A stretch of DNA of 38,739 nucleotides from Bacteroidota bacterium (GTDB lineage Bacteria; Bacteroidota; Ignavibacteria; UBA10030; UBA8401). The notes under the pieces were generated by a model, which was not told the DNA's origin, searched no databases, and saw nothing but the letters and a program-made list of their open reading frames with translations. The first letter of the stretch is position 1; every line of letters begins with the position of its first letter. Made by a program: the position numbers and the translations under genes. Positions 1,692 to 38,739 of the stretch are shown here, piece by piece. The DNA lies in NCBI GenBank assembly GCA_008933835.1, contig WBUG01000030.1, positions 1 to 38,739 on the forward strand, in the 5' to 3' direction.

Positions 1692-2882
1692 ATGGCATCG
1701 AAGCACAACATCCTGAGAACGATGAGCGACGCAGACATCCGCCGGCTTGCGGTGGCGGTGGCGTTCCTCTTCGCCATGATCGGTCCCCTCACGCTGCTCA
1801 TGGACGACACCATCATCGCCGCCTCCTGGCTCCGGCTGCTCGTCATGACGGTCGTCAGCGGAGCCTTCTCCGCCTCCATCATCCTCGCTAAGGGGAATCC
1901 CTTCAAACTGCTGGGGTCCGTTCTCATCTACATCTGCATCACTCTGCTTCTCGCTTTCGTCCGCTTCGAGGCTCTGGAGCCGGATGTCCCGGCGGTGGAG
2001 GTGAAACCCGGAGTCCCCTTCGCTCTCAGCCGCGAACAGCTGGCCGACCTCAACGTGAAGCGGACCATGTTCGGGATGACGGCCATCCTCTGTCTCACCG
2101 TCGGATACGCGCTGTTCGTCCGGGTCATCTCCCGCGAGAACAAGCGGCGGGCCGCGGTCGAGGCGGAGATGAAGCTCGCGCAGCGCATCCATGCATCGCT
2201 CCTGCCGAAGGGGACGTACACCGGCGGAGGATGCGAGGCCGGAGGCATCAGCGTACCCGCGACGGAAGTGGGGGGCGATTTCTTCGACGTGGTGAGACTC
2301 GGACCGGCGTCGGTGCTGGTGGTGGCCGCTGATGCGTCAGGGCACGGTACCGGAGCGGGAGTGCTCTCCGCGATGACCAAGAGCGCGCTCCTGCAGGAGG
2401 CTCGGCACACGCACACGCCGGCCGCGCTCCTCACGAACGTGAACCGGACGCTGTTCGCCGTGACGGAGCGGAACATGTTCATCACCTGTGCGGCGGTGCT
2501 CGTCGATACGGCCGCGAAGAGAGCGGAGGTCGTGACAGCGGGACATCCGCCGGTGCTCGTCCGGCGACAGGGCGGACGGATCGAGGAGGTGCGCATTCCC
2601 GGCGTAGCGCTCGGCATCGCGCCGGAGACGGAATACCGTTCGGCGTTCGTTTCGCTGGAGGACGCCGATGCGATCTTTCTTTTCACGGACGGAGCGGTGG
2701 AATGCCGGAACAGCAGCGGCGAAGAGTTCGGTCCCGAACGACTTCGCGTCATGCTCGCGACCCTTCCATTGGCGGAGGCCGGTGCCATGAGCGTTTCGGC
2801 CGTCGAGCAGGTGCGGACGTTCGCCGGAAAGAGCGAGATACAAGATGATATCACCATCGTTTGTGTGAAAGTGAATGTGTAA
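1692..2882 (+). CDS. Membrane-anchored PP2C/SpoIIE-type serine phosphatase (RsbU-like)
   Basis: A 396-residue signalling phosphatase. Four hydrophobic segments (about 18-36, 44-65, 72-90, 125-145) anchor it in the inner membrane. A short linker with the MKLAQRIHASLLP motif, usual in RsbU proteins, leads to the PP2C domain (about 170-396). Metal-ligand positions are visible: D196 in EVGGDFFDV, D214 in ADASGHG, LFTDG, and the QDD near 384-386. Such enzymes dephosphorylate anti-anti-sigma factors of the SpoIIAA/RsbV type and so switch partner-controlled sigma factors. No STAS or RsbW-like partner is in the window, so its target is unknown. The start is supported by GGAGG just upstream. No sensory domain (PAS, GAF, HAMP) is apparent, so any input probably comes through the membrane part. 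Confidence 0.88.
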   Translation: MASKHNILRTMSDADIRRLAVAVAFLFAMIGPLTLLMDDTIIAASWLRLLVMTVVSGAFSASIILAKGNPFKLLGSVLIYICITLLLAFVRFEALEPDVPAVEVKPGVPFALSREQLADLNVKRTMFGMTAILCLTVGYALFVRVISRENKRRAAVEAEMKLAQRIHASLLPKGTYTGGGCEAGGISVPATEVGGDFFDVVRLGPASVLVVAADASGHGTGAGVLSAMTKSALLQEARHTHTPAALLTNVNRTLFAVTERNMFITCAAVLVDTAAKRAEVVTAGHPPVLVRRQGGRIEEVRIPGVALGIAPETEYRSAFVSLEDADAIFLFTDGAVECRNSSGEEFGPERLRVMLATLPLAEAGAMSVSAVEQVRTFAGKSEIQDDITIVCVKVNV

Positions 2883-2980
2883 CCTATGACAAGCGACAAA
2901 ACAGATATTTTTCTTGACTTTGCCTCCCGACTTCCCGTTCTTTGTTCGTCAACGAAAACACTTGTCAGGGGAGGAGTGTA

Positions 2981-3700
2981 ATGAAAGTAGGTTTGCTTCG
3001 ATTCGCCGTCGTTGCCGCGTTTCTGGCCGGCTGTTCCGACGGTTCCATGGAGAAGATCGTCACACCGTCGGCGGATGAGTCCGTCGCAGAGCTGCAGCGG
3101 CCGGGCTTGCGGTCGAACGCCATTCTGCCTCCGCCGTCGACTCCCACCGCGTCCGCGACCGCGTCGGTCGATTCCATCTTCTCTTCGGACGGCGCGACCG
3201 ATTCCGTCACCTTCGTCGGCGTGGCCGGCAATTTCGATACGGCGTACTATTCGCTGACCGACGAGTACGGCGTCATCAGTGCGTCGGGGGGATTCACCGT
3301 CGGTTCCGTCACGCTGGAGATGGTGCTGCCGACCAACGCCAACGCGAACGATGCCGACGGCCGGCTCTTCACGTTCACCGTGACATCGGTCGGCGGGACC
3401 GTGACGGCGGTCGCTTCGACCACCGTGGTCGCGCCGTACATCGCGCCGTCGAACGACGATGACGATGACGACGACGGATGCGGCAGCGGTCATCACGGCC
3501 GGGGGCACAACAAGAAGCACTGGAAGTGCGAAAAGTGCGGCAAGCACAACCATGTGAACAAGTGGCACGATTATAAATGCTCGCACTGCTCCTGGAAGCA
3601 CAACGACAACTGGAAATGTGCGAAGTGCGGCAAGCATCACGCCCAGTCGTCCAAGAAGAACTACTGCAATAAGAAGAAGGGTCCCGGCGGCCGCGGCTGA
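2981..3700 (+). CDS. Lipoprotein with polyaspartate linker and Cys/His-rich putative metal-binding tail
   Basis: A 239-residue predicted lipoprotein of unknown function. The signal sequence ends in the lipobox LAGC (C18). Residues about 60-155 look like one beta-sandwich (fibronectin/Ig-like) domain rich in T, V and S. Seven aspartates (159-165) form a linker. The tail (166-239) holds cysteines at 167, 183, 186, 200, 203, 213, 216 and 229 plus many histidines and lysines. The motif WKCxKCGKH occurs twice, 30 residues apart (C183/C186 and C213/C216), with KCSHC between. Paired CxxC motifs suggest zinc-ribbon-like metal binding, unusual for a protein anchored outside the cytoplasm. The start was chosen for its strong GGGGAGGAG site and signal peptide; an in-frame ATG at 2942 lacks both. 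A terminator follows directly. Confidence 0.75.
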   Translation: MKVGLLRFAVVAAFLAGCSDGSMEKIVTPSADESVAELQRPGLRSNAILPPPSTPTASATASVDSIFSSDGATDSVTFVGVAGNFDTAYYSLTDEYGVISASGGFTVGSVTLEMVLPTNANANDADGRLFTFTVTSVGGTVTAVASTTVVAPYIAPSNDDDDDDDGCGSGHHGRGHNKKHWKCEKCGKHNHVNKWHDYKCSHCSWKHNDNWKCAKCGKHHAQSSKKNYCNKKKGPGGRG

Positions 3701-3720
3701 CCCTCGCGGTACGCCGAACG

Positions 3721-3759
3721 GAGGCGAAGGACCGGTACGGTCCTTCGCCTCTTGCTTTG
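3721..3759 (+). terminator. Strong intrinsic terminator after the lipoprotein gene
   Basis: A perfect 14-bp stem is formed by 3721-3734 and 3738-3751 with a GTA loop, followed by TTGCTTTG. It begins 20 bases after the lipoprotein stop codon and separates that gene from the methyltransferase block. The long stem with a U-containing tail is typical of rho-independent terminators. Confidence 0.85.
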
Positions 3760-3841
3760 TACACCCTCCCGGCGCTTCCCCCTTCCATCTCCGCGAATCT
3801 TTTTCTACATTGCCCCATCGTTCACATCGCAGGACCGGACC

Positions 3842-4975
3842 ATGACGCCCCGCGAACGGGTCCTCGCCGCCATGCGGCGGGAACCGGTCGATACCGTTCC
3901 CCTGATGTGCCAGATGAGCATCGGCCACATGCTGCAGCAGTACCGGTGCTCACCGGCCGATTTCTGGCATGACGTCGATACGTTCGCGGACGGGCTCGTC
4001 CGGCTGCGCGAACTGTACGGCTTCGACGGCATCCTCGTCAGCCTCCACGGCCACGATCCCTCCTGGCGCGGCGGCATCGCATCGCGCCGCATGACGGAGG
4101 AGTACGAAGAGATCGTCTGGAAGAACGGCGACGCCACGCACTACCTGTTCGACGACCTGCCGGAGCACATCGCCGCGCGCCCGCGCGAACTCCCTCCCGT
4201 GGGCGAGGTCTCGCGCAACGACCTTCCCGCGGCGCTCGACGTCATCCCCGTCTCCCAGGGACTCAAGTTCTTCATCCACCCCGCGCACCGGTTCGACATC
4301 TTCCGCACGCTGCACGACCGCACGGGGGGGATGTACTCGCTGCACGGGGAGATCACGTCGCCGTTCGATTACTACCTCGACTTCGTCGGGTACCAGGAGG
4401 GGCTCATCGGCATGATCGACGCGCCGGAGACGGTGGCGATGATCATGGGGCATTACGCGGAGCTCATCGAAGAGCTCGCCGTGGCGATGTGCGGCGAGGG
4501 GATCGACGCCATCAAGGTCTCCTCCCCGTACGCCGGCTCCTCCTTCATCTCCCCGGAATTCTACGCGGCGTTCGTCCTGCCGCACGAGGGGCGCATCGCC
4601 CGCGCGGTGCGGGCGCAGGGGACCGAGATCTACACGCACACCTGCGGCGCGGTGAACGACCGGCTCGAACTGATGTTCGACGCCGGCGTGAGCGGCATCG
4701 AATGTCTGGACCCGGAACCGCTCGGCGACGTGGACCTGGCGGACGCCTTCCGCCGCATCGGACACCGGGGCTTCATCAAGGGGAATATCGATTCGGTGAC
4801 GGTGCTGCTGCAGGGGACGGAGACGGAGATCGAGGCCGACGTCCGCCGGCGCATCGAGACCGGACGCGCGCACCCCGGCTTCATCCTCAGTACCGCCTGC
4901 TCCATCGCTCCGCGCGTGAAGCGGGAGCATGTGCGGCTGCTCCGAACGCTCGTGGACCGGTACGGAGGGACATGA
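3842..4975 (+). CDS. Uroporphyrinogen-decarboxylase-family corrinoid methyltransferase (MtaA/CmuA-like)
   Basis: The 377-residue TIM-barrel protein belongs to the UroD superfamily. It shows the MtaA/MtbA-type zinc signature: H266-x-C268 in THTCG and C353 in STACS. Methyltransferases of the superfamily use it to bind zinc and activate a thiol or methyl donor; true haem-pathway decarboxylases lack it. It is cytoplasmic. The next gene, overlapping by ATGA, encodes a corrinoid protein, so the likely job is moving a methyl group onto or off that cobalamin carrier. The methyl donor cannot be read from sequence. The start MTPRERVLAAM is the family's usual N-terminus with AGGA seven bases upstream; an upstream ATG at 3752 would add a non-conserved extension overlapping the region after the terminator. 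A UroD role in haem synthesis is less likely. Confidence 0.85.
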   Translation: MTPRERVLAAMRREPVDTVPLMCQMSIGHMLQQYRCSPADFWHDVDTFADGLVRLRELYGFDGILVSLHGHDPSWRGGIASRRMTEEYEEIVWKNGDATHYLFDDLPEHIAARPRELPPVGEVSRNDLPAALDVIPVSQGLKFFIHPAHRFDIFRTLHDRTGGMYSLHGEITSPFDYYLDFVGYQEGLIGMIDAPETVAMIMGHYAELIEELAVAMCGEGIDAIKVSSPYAGSSFISPEFYAAFVLPHEGRIARAVRAQGTEIYTHTCGAVNDRLELMFDAGVSGIECLDPEPLGDVDLADAFRRIGHRGFIKGNIDSVTVLLQGTETEIEADVRRRIETGRAHPGFILSTACSIAPRVKREHVRLLRTLVDRYGGT

Positions 4976-33314: not shown

Positions 33315-34640
33315 ATGTTTTCCCGCAACTACAGCTCCTACTACAACATCATGCCGGACGGCACGGTGAAGCAGATCAATCCCTTCACCGGCACCGAGGT
33401 GTGGGCCGTTCCCGGCCGCGGCACCAAACCCATCACCAACGAACCTCCCGCCTCCGCCGGCCCGGTCCGGCACGCGGACCCCGAGGACCACTGCAGCTTC
33501 TGCGCCGCGCGGTACTTCGAGACGCCCCCCGAGAAGGCGCGGCTGGTCCGCGTGGACGGACGGTACGAAACGCTGCGGCGCCTCGAACCGGGCCGCTACT
33601 TCGACACCGCGGCGGAGTTCCGCCGCACCGGCAACCTCTTCGAGATCGTCACCATCGACTACTGGAAGAAGAACTACGGCTACCGCCTCAGCGCCTCGCA
33701 GACCGCGTGGCGCGACGCGTACTTCGCGGACCCGAAAGGGGCGCAGCACATCAACGACATCATCCGGTACAAACTGGAGGTCTCGGGCAAGACGCCGGAG
33801 CAGATCCGCAAGAAGTCCGCGTACGAGAAGGTGAACATGATGGACGCCTTCTTCGGCGGCTGCCACGAGCTCATCATCGCGAAGAGCCATTACCATCCGA
33901 AGGCGGAGGCCGACACACAGTTCCGTTCGTCCGGCGACCTCTCGCCGGAGGAGCACTATCAGTACCTCCGGTTCACCATCGAGGCGATGCGCGACATGCT
34001 CGATGCGAACCGGTACATCCGGTACATCAGCGTCTTCCAGAACTGGCTCCGTCTCTCCGGCGCGTCGTTCGACCATCTCCACAAGCAGCTCTGCGGACTG
34101 GACGAATGGGGCGCCTCCATCACGGACCAGGTGGCGATGCTGCGGACCGACGCCAACGTGTTCAACGAGCTCGGCGCCAACCTCGCGGCGCAGTACAACC
34201 TCGTCTTCGCCGAGAACGACCACGCCATCGCGTTCGTCGGCATCGGCCACCGGTATCCCACCATCGAGATCTACTCCAAGTCGCGCTCGTCCCGACCGTA
34301 CGAACACGACCCGCTGGAACTGCGGGGTGTCAGCGATATGGTGCACGCCTGCCACGCCGCCATGGGCTCGCAGCTCTCGTGCAACGAGGAATGGTATTAC
34401 ACCCCCGTCGACGCCGTCCATTCCATGCCCTGGCACATCTTCCTCAAATGGCGCGTCAACGTTCCCGCCGGATTCGAAGGGGGGACCTCCATTTATATCA
34501 ATCCCATCACGCCGGTCGATCTGCGTGATAAGCTCGTTCCGAGACTTTACGAACTGCGGGATCACGGGCTCATCGCGCCGCTCCATCTGGCGGAGGAATG
34601 CCGTCTTCCTCCCAATCCTCTTCAGTACTATAAGAGATAA
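33315..34640 (+). CDS. GalT-like HIT-superfamily protein (DUF4921)
   Basis: A 441-residue protein related to galactose-1-phosphate uridylyltransferase. Landmarks are a CSFC pair (C60, C63) like the GalT zinc pair, HELIIAKSHYHP from H184, and SVFQNWLRLSGASFDHLHKQL, where H254-L-H256-x-Q258 replaces the HPHxQ active site. By analogy H256 would form the nucleotidyl intermediate and H254 bind zinc. It differs from GalT in length and in much of the surface, matching the uncharacterised DUF4921 group. A sugar-1-phosphate nucleotidyl or adenylyl transfer is plausible but not shown. The sugar-phosphate mutase two genes upstream is suggestive. GGGGG upstream supports the start. No terminator is seen before the TetR gene. 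Confidence 0.78.
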   Translation: MFSRNYSSYYNIMPDGTVKQINPFTGTEVWAVPGRGTKPITNEPPASAGPVRHADPEDHCSFCAARYFETPPEKARLVRVDGRYETLRRLEPGRYFDTAAEFRRTGNLFEIVTIDYWKKNYGYRLSASQTAWRDAYFADPKGAQHINDIIRYKLEVSGKTPEQIRKKSAYEKVNMMDAFFGGCHELIIAKSHYHPKAEADTQFRSSGDLSPEEHYQYLRFTIEAMRDMLDANRYIRYISVFQNWLRLSGASFDHLHKQLCGLDEWGASITDQVAMLRTDANVFNELGANLAAQYNLVFAENDHAIAFVGIGHRYPTIEIYSKSRSSRPYEHDPLELRGVSDMVHACHAAMGSQLSCNEEWYYTPVDAVHSMPWHIFLKWRVNVPAGFEGGTSIYINPITPVDLRDKLVPRLYELRDHGLIAPLHLAEECRLPPNPLQYYKR

Positions 34641-34649
34641 ATATTCTTC

Positions 34650-34678
34650 TTGACTTCGAATTTATTATTTGCTAAACT
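34650..34678 (+). promoter_or_regulatory. Promoter of the TetR gene
   Basis: TTGACT at 34650-34655, an exact 17-base spacer and TAAACT at 34673-34678 make a good sigma70-like promoter 28 bases before the TetR start codon. The -10 box lies inside the operator-like palindrome described separately, as expected for autorepression. Confidence 0.6.
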
Positions 34679-34691
34679 ATGTTCAGTAAAT
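34667..34691. promoter_or_regulatory. Operator-like palindrome 1 (TetR autoregulation site)
   Basis: Eleven-base arms 34667-34677 and 34681-34691 around TAT match at 9 of 11 positions. The core CTAAAC-TAT-GTTCAG is of the TGAAC-N3-GTTCA type bound by many TetR/AcrR repressors. It covers the promoter -10 box. A sister site lies downstream of the gene. Confidence 0.6.
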
Positions 34692-34705
34692 AATCATAGT
34701 TAATT

Positions 34706-35314
34706 ATGGGTTTATCGGAAAGAAAAGAGCGCGAAAAGCTGGAAATGCGGGAGATGATCCTCTCTGCAGCGAAGAGACTGTTCATTCGTGAAGGCTTTGA
34801 TTCGGTCACCATCCGCCGCATTGCCGATGAGATCGAATACAGTCCCGCGACGGTCTATTTGTATTACAAGGACAAAGACTCCATTCTTTGTGCTCTTCAG
34901 GAGACCGGTTTCCGTGAGCTCTCCCGGAGGATGGAGGTGCTGTCGTCCATTGCGCACCCGGTGGACCGGCTGAAAGCATCCGGGAAGATATACTGTGATT
35001 TTGCTCTGGAAAACCGCGAAATGTACGACCTCATGTTCATCATGCGCGCCCCGATGAACGCTCTTCCGTCGCCGGAAGAATGGACCGTTGGCCGTCATTC
35101 CTACGAGCTGCTGCAGTCCACCGTGCAGGATTGCGTCGACGGCGGGCACATCAGCACTCCGGACGCCAAGATCGCGACGTTCGCCCTTTGGGCACTGATG
35201 CACGGCGTCGTCTCCATCTTCATCCGCGAACGCGCCCCCATGATCCCGGCCGACCAGCATAGCCGCATCATCTCGAAGATCATGGAGTTCTCCCTCGCGA
35301 ATGTCGTGAAATGA
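34706..35314 (+). CDS. TetR/AcrR-family transcriptional regulator
   Basis: A 202-residue repressor. The N-terminal helix-turn-helix (about 13-60) reads REMILSAAKRLFIREGFDSV and IADEIEYSPATVYLYYKDKD. The all-helical C-terminal part (about 75-200) contains FALWALMHGVVSIF, typical of the TetR C-terminal WHG-type domain that binds ligands and forms the dimer. The ligand is unknown. Matching palindromes in its own promoter and ahead of the next gene suggest it represses itself and the SDR/TonB-receptor pair. The coding sequence is visibly less GC-rich than its neighbours, hinting at recent acquisition. The start codon lacks a clear Shine-Dalgarno site, which is common in Bacteroidota. Confidence 0.92.
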   Translation: MGLSERKEREKLEMREMILSAAKRLFIREGFDSVTIRRIADEIEYSPATVYLYYKDKDSILCALQETGFRELSRRMEVLSSIAHPVDRLKASGKIYCDFALENREMYDLMFIMRAPMNALPSPEEWTVGRHSYELLQSTVQDCVDGGHISTPDAKIATFALWALMHGVVSIFIRERAPMIPADQHSRIISKIMEFSLANVVK

Positions 35315-35320
35315 TTTTTT

Positions 35321-35349
35321 TTGCACTATCACTAAACATTGTTCATTAT
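35321..35349 (+). promoter_or_regulatory. Promoter with operator-like palindrome 2 ahead of the SDR gene
   Basis: TTGCAC at 35321-35326, 17 bases, then CATTAT at 35344-35349 is a fair promoter. Between and overlapping the boxes lies CTAAAC-ATT-GTTCAT (35332-35346), nearly identical to the site in the TetR promoter (CTAAAC, three bases, GTTCA). It begins 17 bases after the TetR stop codon. Confidence 0.5.
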
Positions 35350-35370
35350 CTGCTCATCGTTTGCACCCGG

Positions 35371-35408
35371 AATTCTTAATTCCTAATTCCTAATTCCTAA
35401 TTCCTAAT
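35371..35408. repeat. Heptamer tandem repeat AATTCCT touching the start codon
   Basis: From 35371 the sequence runs AATTCTT, then four perfect AATTCCT units (35378-35405), then AATT directly followed by the ATG at 35410-35412 (the last unit becomes AATTATG). The repeat occupies the whole leader where a ribosome-binding site would be and contrasts with the GC-rich surroundings. Such short tandem arrays gain and lose units by slippage. Confidence 0.9.
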
Positions 35409-35409
35409 T

Positions 35410-36354
35410 ATGTCATTGCATGTAATATTCGGCTCCGGACCGATGGGGCTTTCGGTCATGGAAGAGCTGCACAAACGCGGCATTCGAGCGCGAATCGTGA
35501 ATCGCCGTGGCGCTGCCGGATTGCCAGCCGGCGTTGAATCATTCCGCGCCGATGTCTTCACCGGAGAGGGGATCGCCGAAGCGGTGAAAGGAGCGTCGGT
35601 CGTATACCAATGCGTCAATCCTCCGTATCACGAGTGGACAACGTTCTTCCCCGTGATGCAGCGGAACATCATCGATGCGGCGGCGAAGGAACGGGCGAAG
35701 GTCGTCATCGGCGAGAACGTGTACATGTACGGTGATGCCGGCGGCCGCGTCATCGACGAAACGCTGCCCGATGCCGCAGGGACGAAGAAGGGGATGCTCC
35801 GAGCTCGGATGGCGGACGAAGCGATGCGGCGTCATCACACGGGCGAAGTGCGCGTCACGTTCGGACGGGCGTCGGACTTCTACGGTCCGCGTGTCACCGC
35901 TTCCGCGATGGGGGAACGGCAGTTCGGTGCGGCGGTGTCCGGCGGAAAGTTCTCGATGACCGGAGATCCCGATCTTCCGCACACCTTCACCTACATCCGC
36001 GACGTGGGCCGGGCGCTGGCGGACCTGGGTACCGACGACCGTGCGAACGGTCGGGTCTGGCACGTGCCGAACGCGCCGGCGGTGACGCAGAGAGCCTTCA
36101 TGGAACTGACGTTCCGCGAGCTCGGAACGCCCCCGCGGTGGTCGGTGATGGGAAGGACGATGATGCGCATCGGAGGATTGTTCATCCCCGCCGCGCATGA
36201 GTCGGTGGAGATGATGTACCAGTACGAACGGCCGTTCATCGTCTCGTCGGACAAGTTCGAACGCTCGTTCGGATGGACGGCGGCGCCGGTGGACGAAGGA
36301 ATACGGGAGACGGTGCGGTGGTATCTCGGTTCACGGACAACGATGAAAGGATGA
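35410..36354 (+). CDS. Atypical SDR / NAD(P)-dependent epimerase-dehydratase family protein
   Basis: A 314-residue Rossmann-fold protein of the extended/atypical SDR group. The cofactor loop is HVIFGSGPMGLSVMEEL (about 4-20), followed by the second strand ARIVNRRG and an acidic turn with ADVF. VYQCVNPPYHEW and VVIGENVYMYGD sit at the usual positions for NAD contact. The expected YxxxK active-site pair is not seen where it should be (GTKKGMLRARMADEAMRRH), so catalysis of the classical type is doubtful. The C-terminal half (VWHVPNAPAVTQRAFMEL, FERSFGWTAAPVDEGIRET) is typical of sugar-epimerase relatives. The product is unknown. The ATG directly follows the heptamer repeat. The TonB receptor gene begins 7 bases after its stop. 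Confidence 0.83.
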   Translation: MSLHVIFGSGPMGLSVMEELHKRGIRARIVNRRGAAGLPAGVESFRADVFTGEGIAEAVKGASVVYQCVNPPYHEWTTFFPVMQRNIIDAAAKERAKVVIGENVYMYGDAGGRVIDETLPDAAGTKKGMLRARMADEAMRRHHTGEVRVTFGRASDFYGPRVTASAMGERQFGAAVSGGKFSMTGDPDLPHTFTYIRDVGRALADLGTDDRANGRVWHVPNAPAVTQRAFMELTFRELGTPPRWSVMGRTMMRIGGLFIPAAHESVEMMYQYERPFIVSSDKFERSFGWTAAPVDEGIRETVRWYLGSRTTMKG

Positions 36355-36361
36355 CGGAACG

Positions 36362-38739
36362 ATGTGCACGACAGAGATCGGTCGGATGACCGTGATACGG
36401 ATGATGCTCATGCTCATGACCGCGCTGCCGCTGACGGCGGCGGAGCGTCCCGCGGCGGAATCGGCGCCGCTGGCGGGCTCCATCGCCGGGCAGGTGATGG
36501 ACGGAACGACGCGCCAGCCGCTGGTCGGCGTCAACGTCGTGGTGGTGGAACGCCCCGCATCGGGCAGCGTCACCGATGCGGAGGGCAACTTCCTGCTCAA
36601 AGGGATCCCGGTCGGGGAGTACAGTCTTCGCCTCTCCCTCATCGGCTACCAGACCGCCGTCCTCACCAACGTGGTGGTCTCGACCGGCCGGAGCAGCAAG
36701 GTGATGGTGCGGATGACGGAGGAGGCGGTGACGGTGGGAGAGGTGACGGTGCGCGCGAACTACTTCAGCAGCGAAGGGAGCATCAGTCCCGTCTCCACCA
36801 TCGGCCTCAACGCGGCGGAGGTGAAGCGCTCGCCCGGCTCCGCGCTGGACATGCAGCGCATCGTGCAGAACCTTCCGAGCGTCGCCAACAGCAACGACCA
36901 GAGCAACGAACTGCTGGTGCGGGGCGGCGCACCGGACGAGAACCTCACCGTGATGGACCACATCGAGGTCCCCACCACCAACCACTATCCCAACCAGTTC
37001 AACTCCGGCGGTCCCATCAACATGGTGAACGTGGACCTCATCGACGACATCCGCTTCTCCACCGGCGGCTTCCCGGCGCAGTACGGCGACAAGCTCTCGT
37101 CCGTGATGGACATCTCGCTGCGCGAGGGGGACCGTGACCGTCGCCTGGCGGGGAGCGTGCTCGCCCATTTCGCCGGCGCCGGTGCGGTGTTCGAGGGAGG
37201 GTTCGCGGCGGGGAAGGGGACCTGGATCGTGTCGGCCCGCCAGAGCTTCCTCGAGACGCTGGACCAGATCGTCGGCATCACCGCGCTCGGCATCACCGCC
37301 GTTCCGAAGTACTACGACATCCAGGCGAAAGGGACGTACGAACTGTCGCCGACACAGAAGCTCATCGTCAACGGACTCTACGGCGACGACCGCATCCTGC
37401 TCAGCGGCGAACCGGACGAGACCAACGACCGGAAGCGGAACGTGCACGACTCCACCGGCGTCGAGACGGTGGACGTCGTCTCGCGCCAGTTCGCCGCCGG
37501 CGTCACGCTGCGCACCCTCTTCGGCGCGGAGGGGTACTCGCTGCTCTCGCTCTACGCGGTCGGAAACCGGTACGACGTGACGGTGACGGAGGAGTTCATG
37601 GACCGCGTCTATGACGGCGCGGGGCGCGTCGTCTCATACCGTCCGCTCCGCACCTCTCCCACGTTCCGCAACGACGCGGTGGAGCGGATGATCGGTCTGA
37701 AGTACGACCTCCTCTTCCATCCCGGCGGCGGCCACGAGCTCTCCGTCGGGGCGCGCGTGCTCACCTCGCTCACGTTCGACAACGACGTCCGGTTCAATTC
37801 GGACACCCTCCGCTTCGACCTGAACGGCGACGGCGTCTTCGAGATTCCGCAGTCCACCTTCCGCGACGGCCGCATCCGGACGGAGCTCGGCTTCGGCGAC
37901 GAGTTCAAGACGGGGGTGTACGTCAGCGACCGCTTCGCGCTGTCGGACCGACTCACCGCGTCGGTCGGACTCCGCTACGACCACTTCACCTATTCCGGCA
38001 CGGGCAACGTCTCGCCCCGCGCGAGCCTCACGTACGCGCTGACGCCGATGATCTCCACCGTCACGCTGGCGTACGGCGAGTACTACCAGACGCAGTCGTT
38101 CCCCCTCTACGGCGACAACGCCGGCGGGACCACGAACCGGAACCTGGACGATTCGCACGCGCGTCACATCGTGCTCGGCACCGAGCATCTGCTGGGAGAG
38201 GGGCTGAAACTGACGCTGGAGGCGTACTACAAGGAGTATTCGGACCTGCCGGTGGACGAAGAGTTCGTCCGCTCCGCCGACCCGACGTTCCGCTCCGACC
38301 GCCGGCTCAGCATCGGCGCGCGCACCTCGCGCGGCGTGGAGCTCTTCGTCCAGCAGAAGCAGGTGGAGGACTACTACGGCACCCTCTCCGTCTCGTACTC
38401 CTCCACGGTGGCGGTCGATCCGCGCACGGACGAGCCTGGCTTCGCACCGGTGAACCAGGGAAGCTTCCCGTACGACTACGATTTCCCGCTGCTCGTCACC
38501 CTGGTGGCGGGCAGGGTGGTGCACGACGTCCGCGCCTCGCTCGATGCGATGCCCTTCTTCATCAAATATCCCACGTACCTGCTTCCGCTGTCGGACGACA
38601 TGGAGTTCAGCCTCCGCTTCCGCTACTCGTCCGGCCGGCCGTACACGCCGCGGGTGTACACCACCGCCATCCAGCGCCGCGAGGGGGGCATCACCTGGTC
38701 CCGCGGCACCTGGCTCGCGTCGGACGACATCAACGGCGG
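36362..38739 (+). CDS. TonB-dependent receptor with carboxypeptidase-like N-terminal domain (partial, 3' end outside window)
   Basis: An open frame of 792 codons continues past the window end. After a probable signal peptide (MTVIRMMLMLMTALPLTAA, beginning at an internal ATG 36386; the upstream ATG 36362 has a GGA close by) comes a CarboxypepD_reg-like beta domain (GSIAGQVMDGTTRQPLVGV, VTDAEGNFLLKGIPVGEYSL). The plug domain follows (MQRIVQNLPSVA, NELLVRGGAPDENLTVMDHI, STGGFPAQYGDKLSSVMDI), then many barrel strands (SVGLRYDHFTYSG, TLEAYYKEYSDLPV, FSLRFRYSSGRPYTPRVY). This architecture is typical of Bacteroidota receptors. No SusD-like partner is visible. The cargo is unknown. It is probably co-transcribed with the SDR gene and so under the TetR operator. 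Confidence 0.9.
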   Translation, partial: MCTTEIGRMTVIRMMLMLMTALPLTAAERPAAESAPLAGSIAGQVMDGTTRQPLVGVNVVVVERPASGSVTDAEGNFLLKGIPVGEYSLRLSLIGYQTAVLTNVVVSTGRSSKVMVRMTEEAVTVGEVTVRANYFSSEGSISPVSTIGLNAAEVKRSPGSALDMQRIVQNLPSVANSNDQSNELLVRGGAPDENLTVMDHIEVPTTNHYPNQFNSGGPINMVNVDLIDDIRFSTGGFPAQYGDKLSSVMDISLREGDRDRRLAGSVLAHFAGAGAVFEGGFAAGKGTWIVSARQSFLETLDQIVGITALGITAVPKYYDIQAKGTYELSPTQKLIVNGLYGDDRILLSGEPDETNDRKRNVHDSTGVETVDVVSRQFAAGVTLRTLFGAEGYSLLSLYAVGNRYDVTVTEEFMDRVYDGAGRVVSYRPLRTSPTFRNDAVERMIGLKYDLLFHPGGGHELSVGARVLTSLTFDNDVRFNSDTLRFDLNGDGVFEIPQSTFRDGRIRTELGFGDEFKTGVYVSDRFALSDRLTASVGLRYDHFTYSGTGNVSPRASLTYALTPMISTVTLAYGEYYQTQSFPLYGDNAGGTTNRNLDDSHARHIVLGTEHLLGEGLKLTLEAYYKEYSDLPVDEEFVRSADPTFRSDRRLSIGARTSRGVELFVQQKQVEDYYGTLSVSYSSTVAVDPRTDEPGFAPVNQGSFPYDYDFPLLVTLVAGRVVHDVRASLDAMPFFIKYPTYLLPLSDDMEFSLRFRYSSGRPYTPRVYTTAIQRREGGITWSRGTWLASDDING

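Follow-up and report, generated by a model that had tools for sequence, protein, structure and literature searches.

The tetR gene of the contig analyzed here (38,739 nucleotides, referred to below as the window) is bordered on both sides by matching palindromic sites which recur at the same places around orthologous tetR genes. We consider it very probable (roughly nine chances in ten) that the regulator forms a local, self-limiting repressor switch acting on its own gene and on the adjoining unit, which encodes an atypical SDR and a TonB-dependent receptor.

The regulator, its predicted operators and the adjoining genes

Both domains characteristic of the TetR family were found in the window protein: the N-terminal TetR_N helix-turn-helix (PF00440; 52.1 bits, cutoff 24) and a C-terminal ligand-binding/dimerisation domain (PF13305; 50.2 bits, cutoff 26.8). 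The AlphaFold2 model has a pLDDT of 91, and its best Foldseek matches are TetR-type regulators (13-24% identity); searches of plasmid and PHROG collections returned distant TetR matches only. The putative DNA-contacting helix, SPATVYLYF, is nearly invariant among orthologues. Among the residues conserved in the ligand domain, none changes in a clade-specific way, the stretches selected by our own search being left aside: LMFI and RRIADxIEY were not used as evidence of a ligand site because the locus search itself had selected for them.

The earlier note had proposed two palindromes flanking tetR, CTAAAC-TAT-GTTCAG and CTAAAC-ATT-GTTCAT. Both are present at the positions it gave (Table 1) and, as it stated, they share 12 of 15 positions. 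The first overlaps the −10 hexamer of the tetR promoter; the second lies just past the tetR stop codon, flanked by the T8 tract and TTGCAC on one side and by the probable −10 hexamer of the following unit on the other. The extent assigned to the operators had to be revised: 18 bp from each palindrome lies a weaker copy with which it forms a doublet, so that the predicted operators reach to about 34706 and about 35366. The tetR promoter was called from its consensus match only, 0.9 such matches being expected in shuffled sequence; equivalent promoters were found upstream of orthologous tetR genes. The window regulator has a predicted palindromic operator at its own promoter, as expected of a TetR-family member, by both sequence and footprint.

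A tract of seven or eight T residues between the tetR stop codon and the downstream operator occurs at equivalent positions in 24 distant loci, across phyla, and may serve as a −35/UP element. In the window, the 7-bp unit AATTCCT, repeated 5.6 times in tandem (35371-35409), occupies the leader from O2 to the SDR start codon. This leader sequence occurs once in the genome, and changes in the copy number of the repeat could alter expression.

Table 1. Coordinates of the regulator, its predicted control sites and the adjoining genes in the window
Feature	Position	Strand	Description
tetR promoter	34650..34678	+	TTGACT - 17 bp - TAAACT, TG before −10
O1, strong half of predicted operator	34670..34688	+	TGCTAAACTATGTTCAGTA, core 34672-34686, over −10; conserved at orthologous positions
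O1', weaker second site	34688..34706	+	18 bp downstream of O1, 7/8 core positions, reaches tetR start
tetR	34706..35314	+	TetR/AcrR-family regulator, 202 aa, TetR_N and TetR_C_33
T-tract	35315..35322	+	between tetR stop and O2, in downstream promoter region
O2, strong half of predicted operator	35330..35348	+	CACTAAACATTGTTCATTA, core 35332-35346
O2', weaker second site	35348..35366	+	18 bp downstream of O2, 5/8 core positions
SDR	35410..36354	+	atypical extended SDR (Epimerase-like), 314 aa; GxGPMG nucleotide loop, KGxxR at place of YxxxK
TonB-dependent receptor	36362..38737	+	N-terminal carboxypeptidase-regulatory-like domain; gene cut by contig end

The product of the first downstream gene matches PF01370 (26.5 bits, cutoff 20.9) and carries a glycine-rich Rossmann loop, GSGPMG, near its N-terminus. 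The YxxxK motif of classical extended SDRs is absent, and an alignment of ten relatives shows an invariant KGxxR in its place, which bears out the earlier description of the enzyme as atypical. Plug and beta-barrel domains (PF07715 and PF00593, both above cutoff) were recognized in the receptor. Since its gene starts 7 bp past the SDR stop codon, the two are probably cotranscribed. The gene preceding tetR (33315-34640) encodes a DUF4921 protein; the same order is found in relative G011, whose protein is 76% identical.

Conservation and specificity of the paired sites

Orthologous TetRs of the same family and order are 36-63% identical to the window protein. The palindrome is present on both sides of tetR in seven of these loci (G020, G001, G017, G018, G011, G009 and G025), and every close orthologue with sufficient flanks has both sites at the same places, irrespective of the next gene; in G021, whose contig starts inside tetR, the downstream site is present. 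The operator matrix built from these relatives has the consensus TACTRAACAATGTTYAGTA. Two genomes of the same family (G003 and G016) have the SDR gene, with no tetR found and no operator in the sequence preceding the SDR. The local regulon predicted by the earlier note (tetR plus the SDR/TonB-receptor unit) is therefore well supported, by the paired sites in close orthologues and by their absence from these two genomes.

A scan of genome contigs yielded 80 loci from Bacteroidota, KSB1, Nitrospirota and contigs labelled Methanoperedens. The matrix, trained on close relatives only, was applied to 38 non-redundant loci outside the training set (TetRs less than 70% identical to one another), with a score of 16 or more defining a strong site and 160 bp upstream or downstream of tetR defining the search zone. 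Of the 38 distant loci, 33 had a strong site upstream of tetR, against 0.04 expected from dinucleotide shuffles; downstream of tetR, 23 of 37 loci had one, against 0.08 expected. When the 80 loci were scanned in full (1.13 Mb), every one of the 139 strong sites lay at one of the two edges of tetR, within about 200 bp, and there were none elsewhere. Phylogenetic footprinting excludes a chance origin of the paired sites.

A strong downstream site is absent from many Nitrospirota and Methanoperedens loci and from a few loci with RND genes, so the next gene may there sometimes be controlled by read-through from the tetR promoter. Four contigs labelled Methanoperedens or archaeon (L095, L097, L101 and L152) contain this TetR together with its upstream operator, and three of the four also have neighbouring MacB-type permease genes; this suggests inter-domain transfer, unless it reflects a binning error.

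The aligned sites are accompanied, 18 bp away, by a second, weaker copy of the core. A copy retaining five or more of the eight core bases was present at this distance in 33 of 34 upstream operators, counting either side, and in 22 of 24 downstream ones; at other offsets such a match occurs at 4% of positions. In loci L108 and L123 the second copy is nearly perfect. In Bacteroidota the +18 block partly overlaps a TAnnTTTG promoter element, which may explain part of its conservation; the conserved GTT and A positions beyond this element are not accounted for by the promoter. The operator unit is thus probably a double site, and its natural reading is that two TetR dimers probably occupy each operator.

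Within the source genome (3.57 Mb) we searched for exact core matches and one-mismatch variants. The exact pattern CTRAACNNNGTTCAK has two matches, both flanking tetR, and the symmetric core TRAACNNNGTTYA has ten, including the two in the window. The window sites score 23.3 and 25.3 with the operator matrix, and the best other match to TRAACNNNGTTYA scores 14.9 and is located in a reading frame. The top one-mismatch variants (TGATCATTGTTCATTG, 18.1-18.7), at three sites on contigs C78 and C82, were rejected as additional operators, as they sit in or beside tandem arrays of TGTTCAT-type heptamers. These heptamer/14-mer arrays, which resemble the operator half-site, lie at 197-479 and 2222-2307 of L049 (G000:C82) and at about 2862 of L048 (G000:C78); the likeness is probably coincidental, although the arrays could possibly act as decoy sites. 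The earlier note had named frequent occurrence at random genome positions as an observation that would count against its prediction, and the two exact sites, together with the confinement of strong sites to tetR, show the opposite. Judged by these searches, the regulon appears to be purely local in the source genome, consisting of tetR, the SDR gene and the TonB receptor gene. In other genomes of the family, extra exact-core sites were about as frequent as matches to a reversed control pattern, and for this reason no wider regulon is claimed.

Exchange of the genes downstream of tetR

The genes that follow tetR differ between lineages. In most Bacteroidota loci, including those of Dyadobacter, Pedobacter and Chitinophaga, tetR is followed by OEP-HlyD-RND genes, encoding a TolC-HlyD-RND efflux pump; most of the Bacteroidota orthologues share the operator and recognition helix of the window regulator, and yet the downstream genes encode a pump. 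In Ignavibacteria related to the window, tetR is followed by TonB receptor genes, with or without the SDR gene, and at least one TonB receptor is kept in the unit in the complete window-like loci. Several arrangements were found: (i) tetR-TonB_A-SDR-TonB_B (G018, and G017 up to the contig end), (ii) tetR-TonB_A (G001), (iii) tetR-TonB_A-TonB_B (G011), (iv) tetR-SDR-DUF2269-TonB_B (G009), and (v) the window-like order site-SDR-TonB_B (G021). TonB_A, a protein of about 806 aa, is about 26% identical to the window receptor (L073 10298-12706; L074 2208-4634; L075 8764-11190; L072, reverse, 2114-4534). Its gene sits between tetR and the SDR/receptor genes in several relatives and is missing from that place in the window and in G021.

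TonB receptors occupy the same slot in loci of KSB1 and of other Ignavibacteria/Chlorobiota (L104, L120 and L163). Two Ignavibacteria, G045 and G033, have RND-type operons, identified by Pfam in the former and by gene order and size in the latter. Loci labelled Nitrospirota or Methanoperedens contain MacB/FtsX permeases, FMN reductases, an amine-oxidase-like flavoprotein or classical SDRs.

The window TetR falls within a supported Ignavibacteria clade in a quick tree (SH-aLRT support only), and the tree as a whole requires no fewer than 12 changes of downstream class, with class labels partly assigned by hand. The SDR family of the window was also found in pump loci: in L109 and L143 the gene is part of the operon, and in three Chitinophaga it is divergent from tetR. 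Among 937 ORFs there were eight matches to this family, all adjoining tetR or in its operon, and this confinement to the neighbourhood of tetR indicates that the SDR is a real, recurring partner. On the strength of these comparisons, the regulator-operator module is read as old and conserved, with the controlled genes exchanged between lineages.

Proposed mechanism, inducer and relation to known systems

In the proposed switch, a TetR dimer (probably two dimers, 18 bp apart) would bind O1, which covers the −10 of the tetR promoter, and repress tetR, and binding at O2, again probably by two dimers, would repress the SDR-TonB receptor unit. A small inducer, accommodated in the C-terminal domain, would release TetR from both promoters together; derepression would then yield more SDR and receptor, and also more repressor, which would reset the switch. 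The position of the operators suggests repression, activation being possible at the second promoter.

As for the inducer, the earlier note had guessed that the regulator responds to the cargo of the receptor. The comparisons do not support this idea: where the operator is shared, the orthologue usually controls an RND pump, a MacB-type exporter or an oxidoreductase. The pumps, exporters and redox enzymes of these sister regulators, taken together with the lack of clade-specific change in the ligand domain, make an exported or detoxified compound likelier than a nutrient cargo. We infer that a small hydrophobic or toxic compound is a more likely inducer than a nutrient carried by the receptor, bearing in mind that pockets can change by few residues. 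A broader view, which we put forward tentatively and at somewhat less than even odds, is that TetR and the 18-bp-spaced double operators on either side of its gene constitute a cassette preserved whole in Bacteroidota, KSB1, Nitrospirota and Methanoperedens-labelled contigs, with its outputs swapped among outer-membrane receptors, efflux pumps, ABC exporters and redox enzymes and one chemical signal shared. If this were true, the TonB receptor of the window lineage would belong to a response to a toxic or exported compound.

It is conceivable, if on the unlikely side, that the ligand domain senses a reactive or toxic compound as a stress/electrophile sensor, perhaps through Cys143, and that the SDR and oxidoreductases detoxify it. 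The effectors found across the family (pumps, exporters, FMN reductases, an amine-oxidase-like flavoprotein and SDRs) are consistent with such a role, and Cys143 is kept in 38 of 42 subfamily members and is not found in the three solved relatives that were aligned. However, the residue is absent from the other four, some of whose loci have both operators, and the nearest solved structures include fatty-acid/acyl-CoA-type regulators (PvrA, FadR and PfmR), which makes an acyl ligand equally possible. Cys143 is at most a hint of electrophile sensing.

Sensing of cargo, whereby the receptor imports a nutrient which, itself or as a product of the SDR, induces the unit, would account for the presence of the receptor gene inside the regulated unit and for the retention of at least one such gene in complete window-like loci of Ignavibacteria. 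We judge it distinctly unlikely: besides the efflux pumps, exporters and oxidoreductases controlled by orthologues that share the operator and show no clade-specific change among conserved ligand-domain residues, the receptors themselves have been swapped, as the low identity of TonB_A illustrates, and the units showed no gene for an inner-membrane importer or for a catabolic pathway.

Binding of TetR to these sites is a prediction, and they could in principle belong to another regulator, their placement around tetR being incidental. This is very improbable, since the sites follow tetR across phyla whatever its neighbours, occur nowhere else in the loci scanned, and are missing where no tetR was found and the SDR stays, as in G003 and G016. 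We give almost no credence to the palindromes being RNA hairpins or terminators, as their closeness to gene ends and the T-tract near O2 might suggest, because the T-tract comes before the repeat and not after it, and other loci likewise have the repeat overlapping the promoter of tetR. Moreover, 18 of the 60 sites, those of the window among them, have A/C at position 4/14, which does not pair in RNA; the purine/pyrimidine choice fits contact with a protein.

With regard to the repressor switch favoured here, the best-described counterpart is the bmeR5-bmeC5A5B5 system of Bacteroides fragilis, an RND operon whose TetR-type repressor, BmeR5, acts at the bmeR5-bmeC5 region (PMC4790292). Both systems, likened by description, have a TetR gene adjoining its target operon and a presumed site of action in the intergenic region between regulator and target, and the order tetR-OEP-HlyD-RND is typical of the relatives of the window TetR. 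The window differs in having an SDR and a TonB receptor, pumps being found in its relatives only. The local exporter repressors TetR (tetO), AcrR, MexZ and CmeR share with the predicted system self-repression, palindromic operators over promoters and presumed release by ligand; the window is set apart by a strong operator on either side of the gene, by doublets with centres 18 bp apart, and by a target that is not an exporter.

Of the solved relatives, PvrA of Pseudomonas aeruginosa (PDB 7w2o, 7y0z) scores best in a sequence-profile comparison (E 1e-19), and it is also among the Foldseek matches, but it is only 21-24% identical to the window TetR, has GKGTIYKHF in place of SPATVYLYF as its recognition helix, and controls other targets. 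The TetR regulator PA3973 of the same species has two nearby pseudopalindromes over its own −10, and its ChIP peaks include some close to phuR and fvbA, two TonB receptor genes whose expression was little changed in the tabulated data (PMC9736018). It differs from the window system in its motif, SAAGRNMTGAACG, and in having about 300 genomic sites. PheR (PMC13273656) was dropped from the comparison, as it is an IclR protein.

We found no description of the operator, of the 18-bp doublet or of the tetR-SDR-TonB arrangement in the open-access literature, which is not proof of absence. A local, self-repressing TetR is of an ordinary kind; what is new is the deeply conserved double operator with swapped effector genes. 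A guess about two sites has become a regulatory code, open to testing, for a subfamily of TetR proteins present in Bacteroidota, Nitrospirota and Methanoperedens-labelled contigs. Cultured genera such as Dyadobacter, Pedobacter and Chitinophaga are included, and in these the regulator is predicted to control RND pumps. The predictions for dozens of genomes could be tested with a single purified protein and a single 37-bp duplex, and the replacement of a pump by an outer-membrane receptor behind an unchanged operator would offer a handle on the role of these poorly understood receptors.
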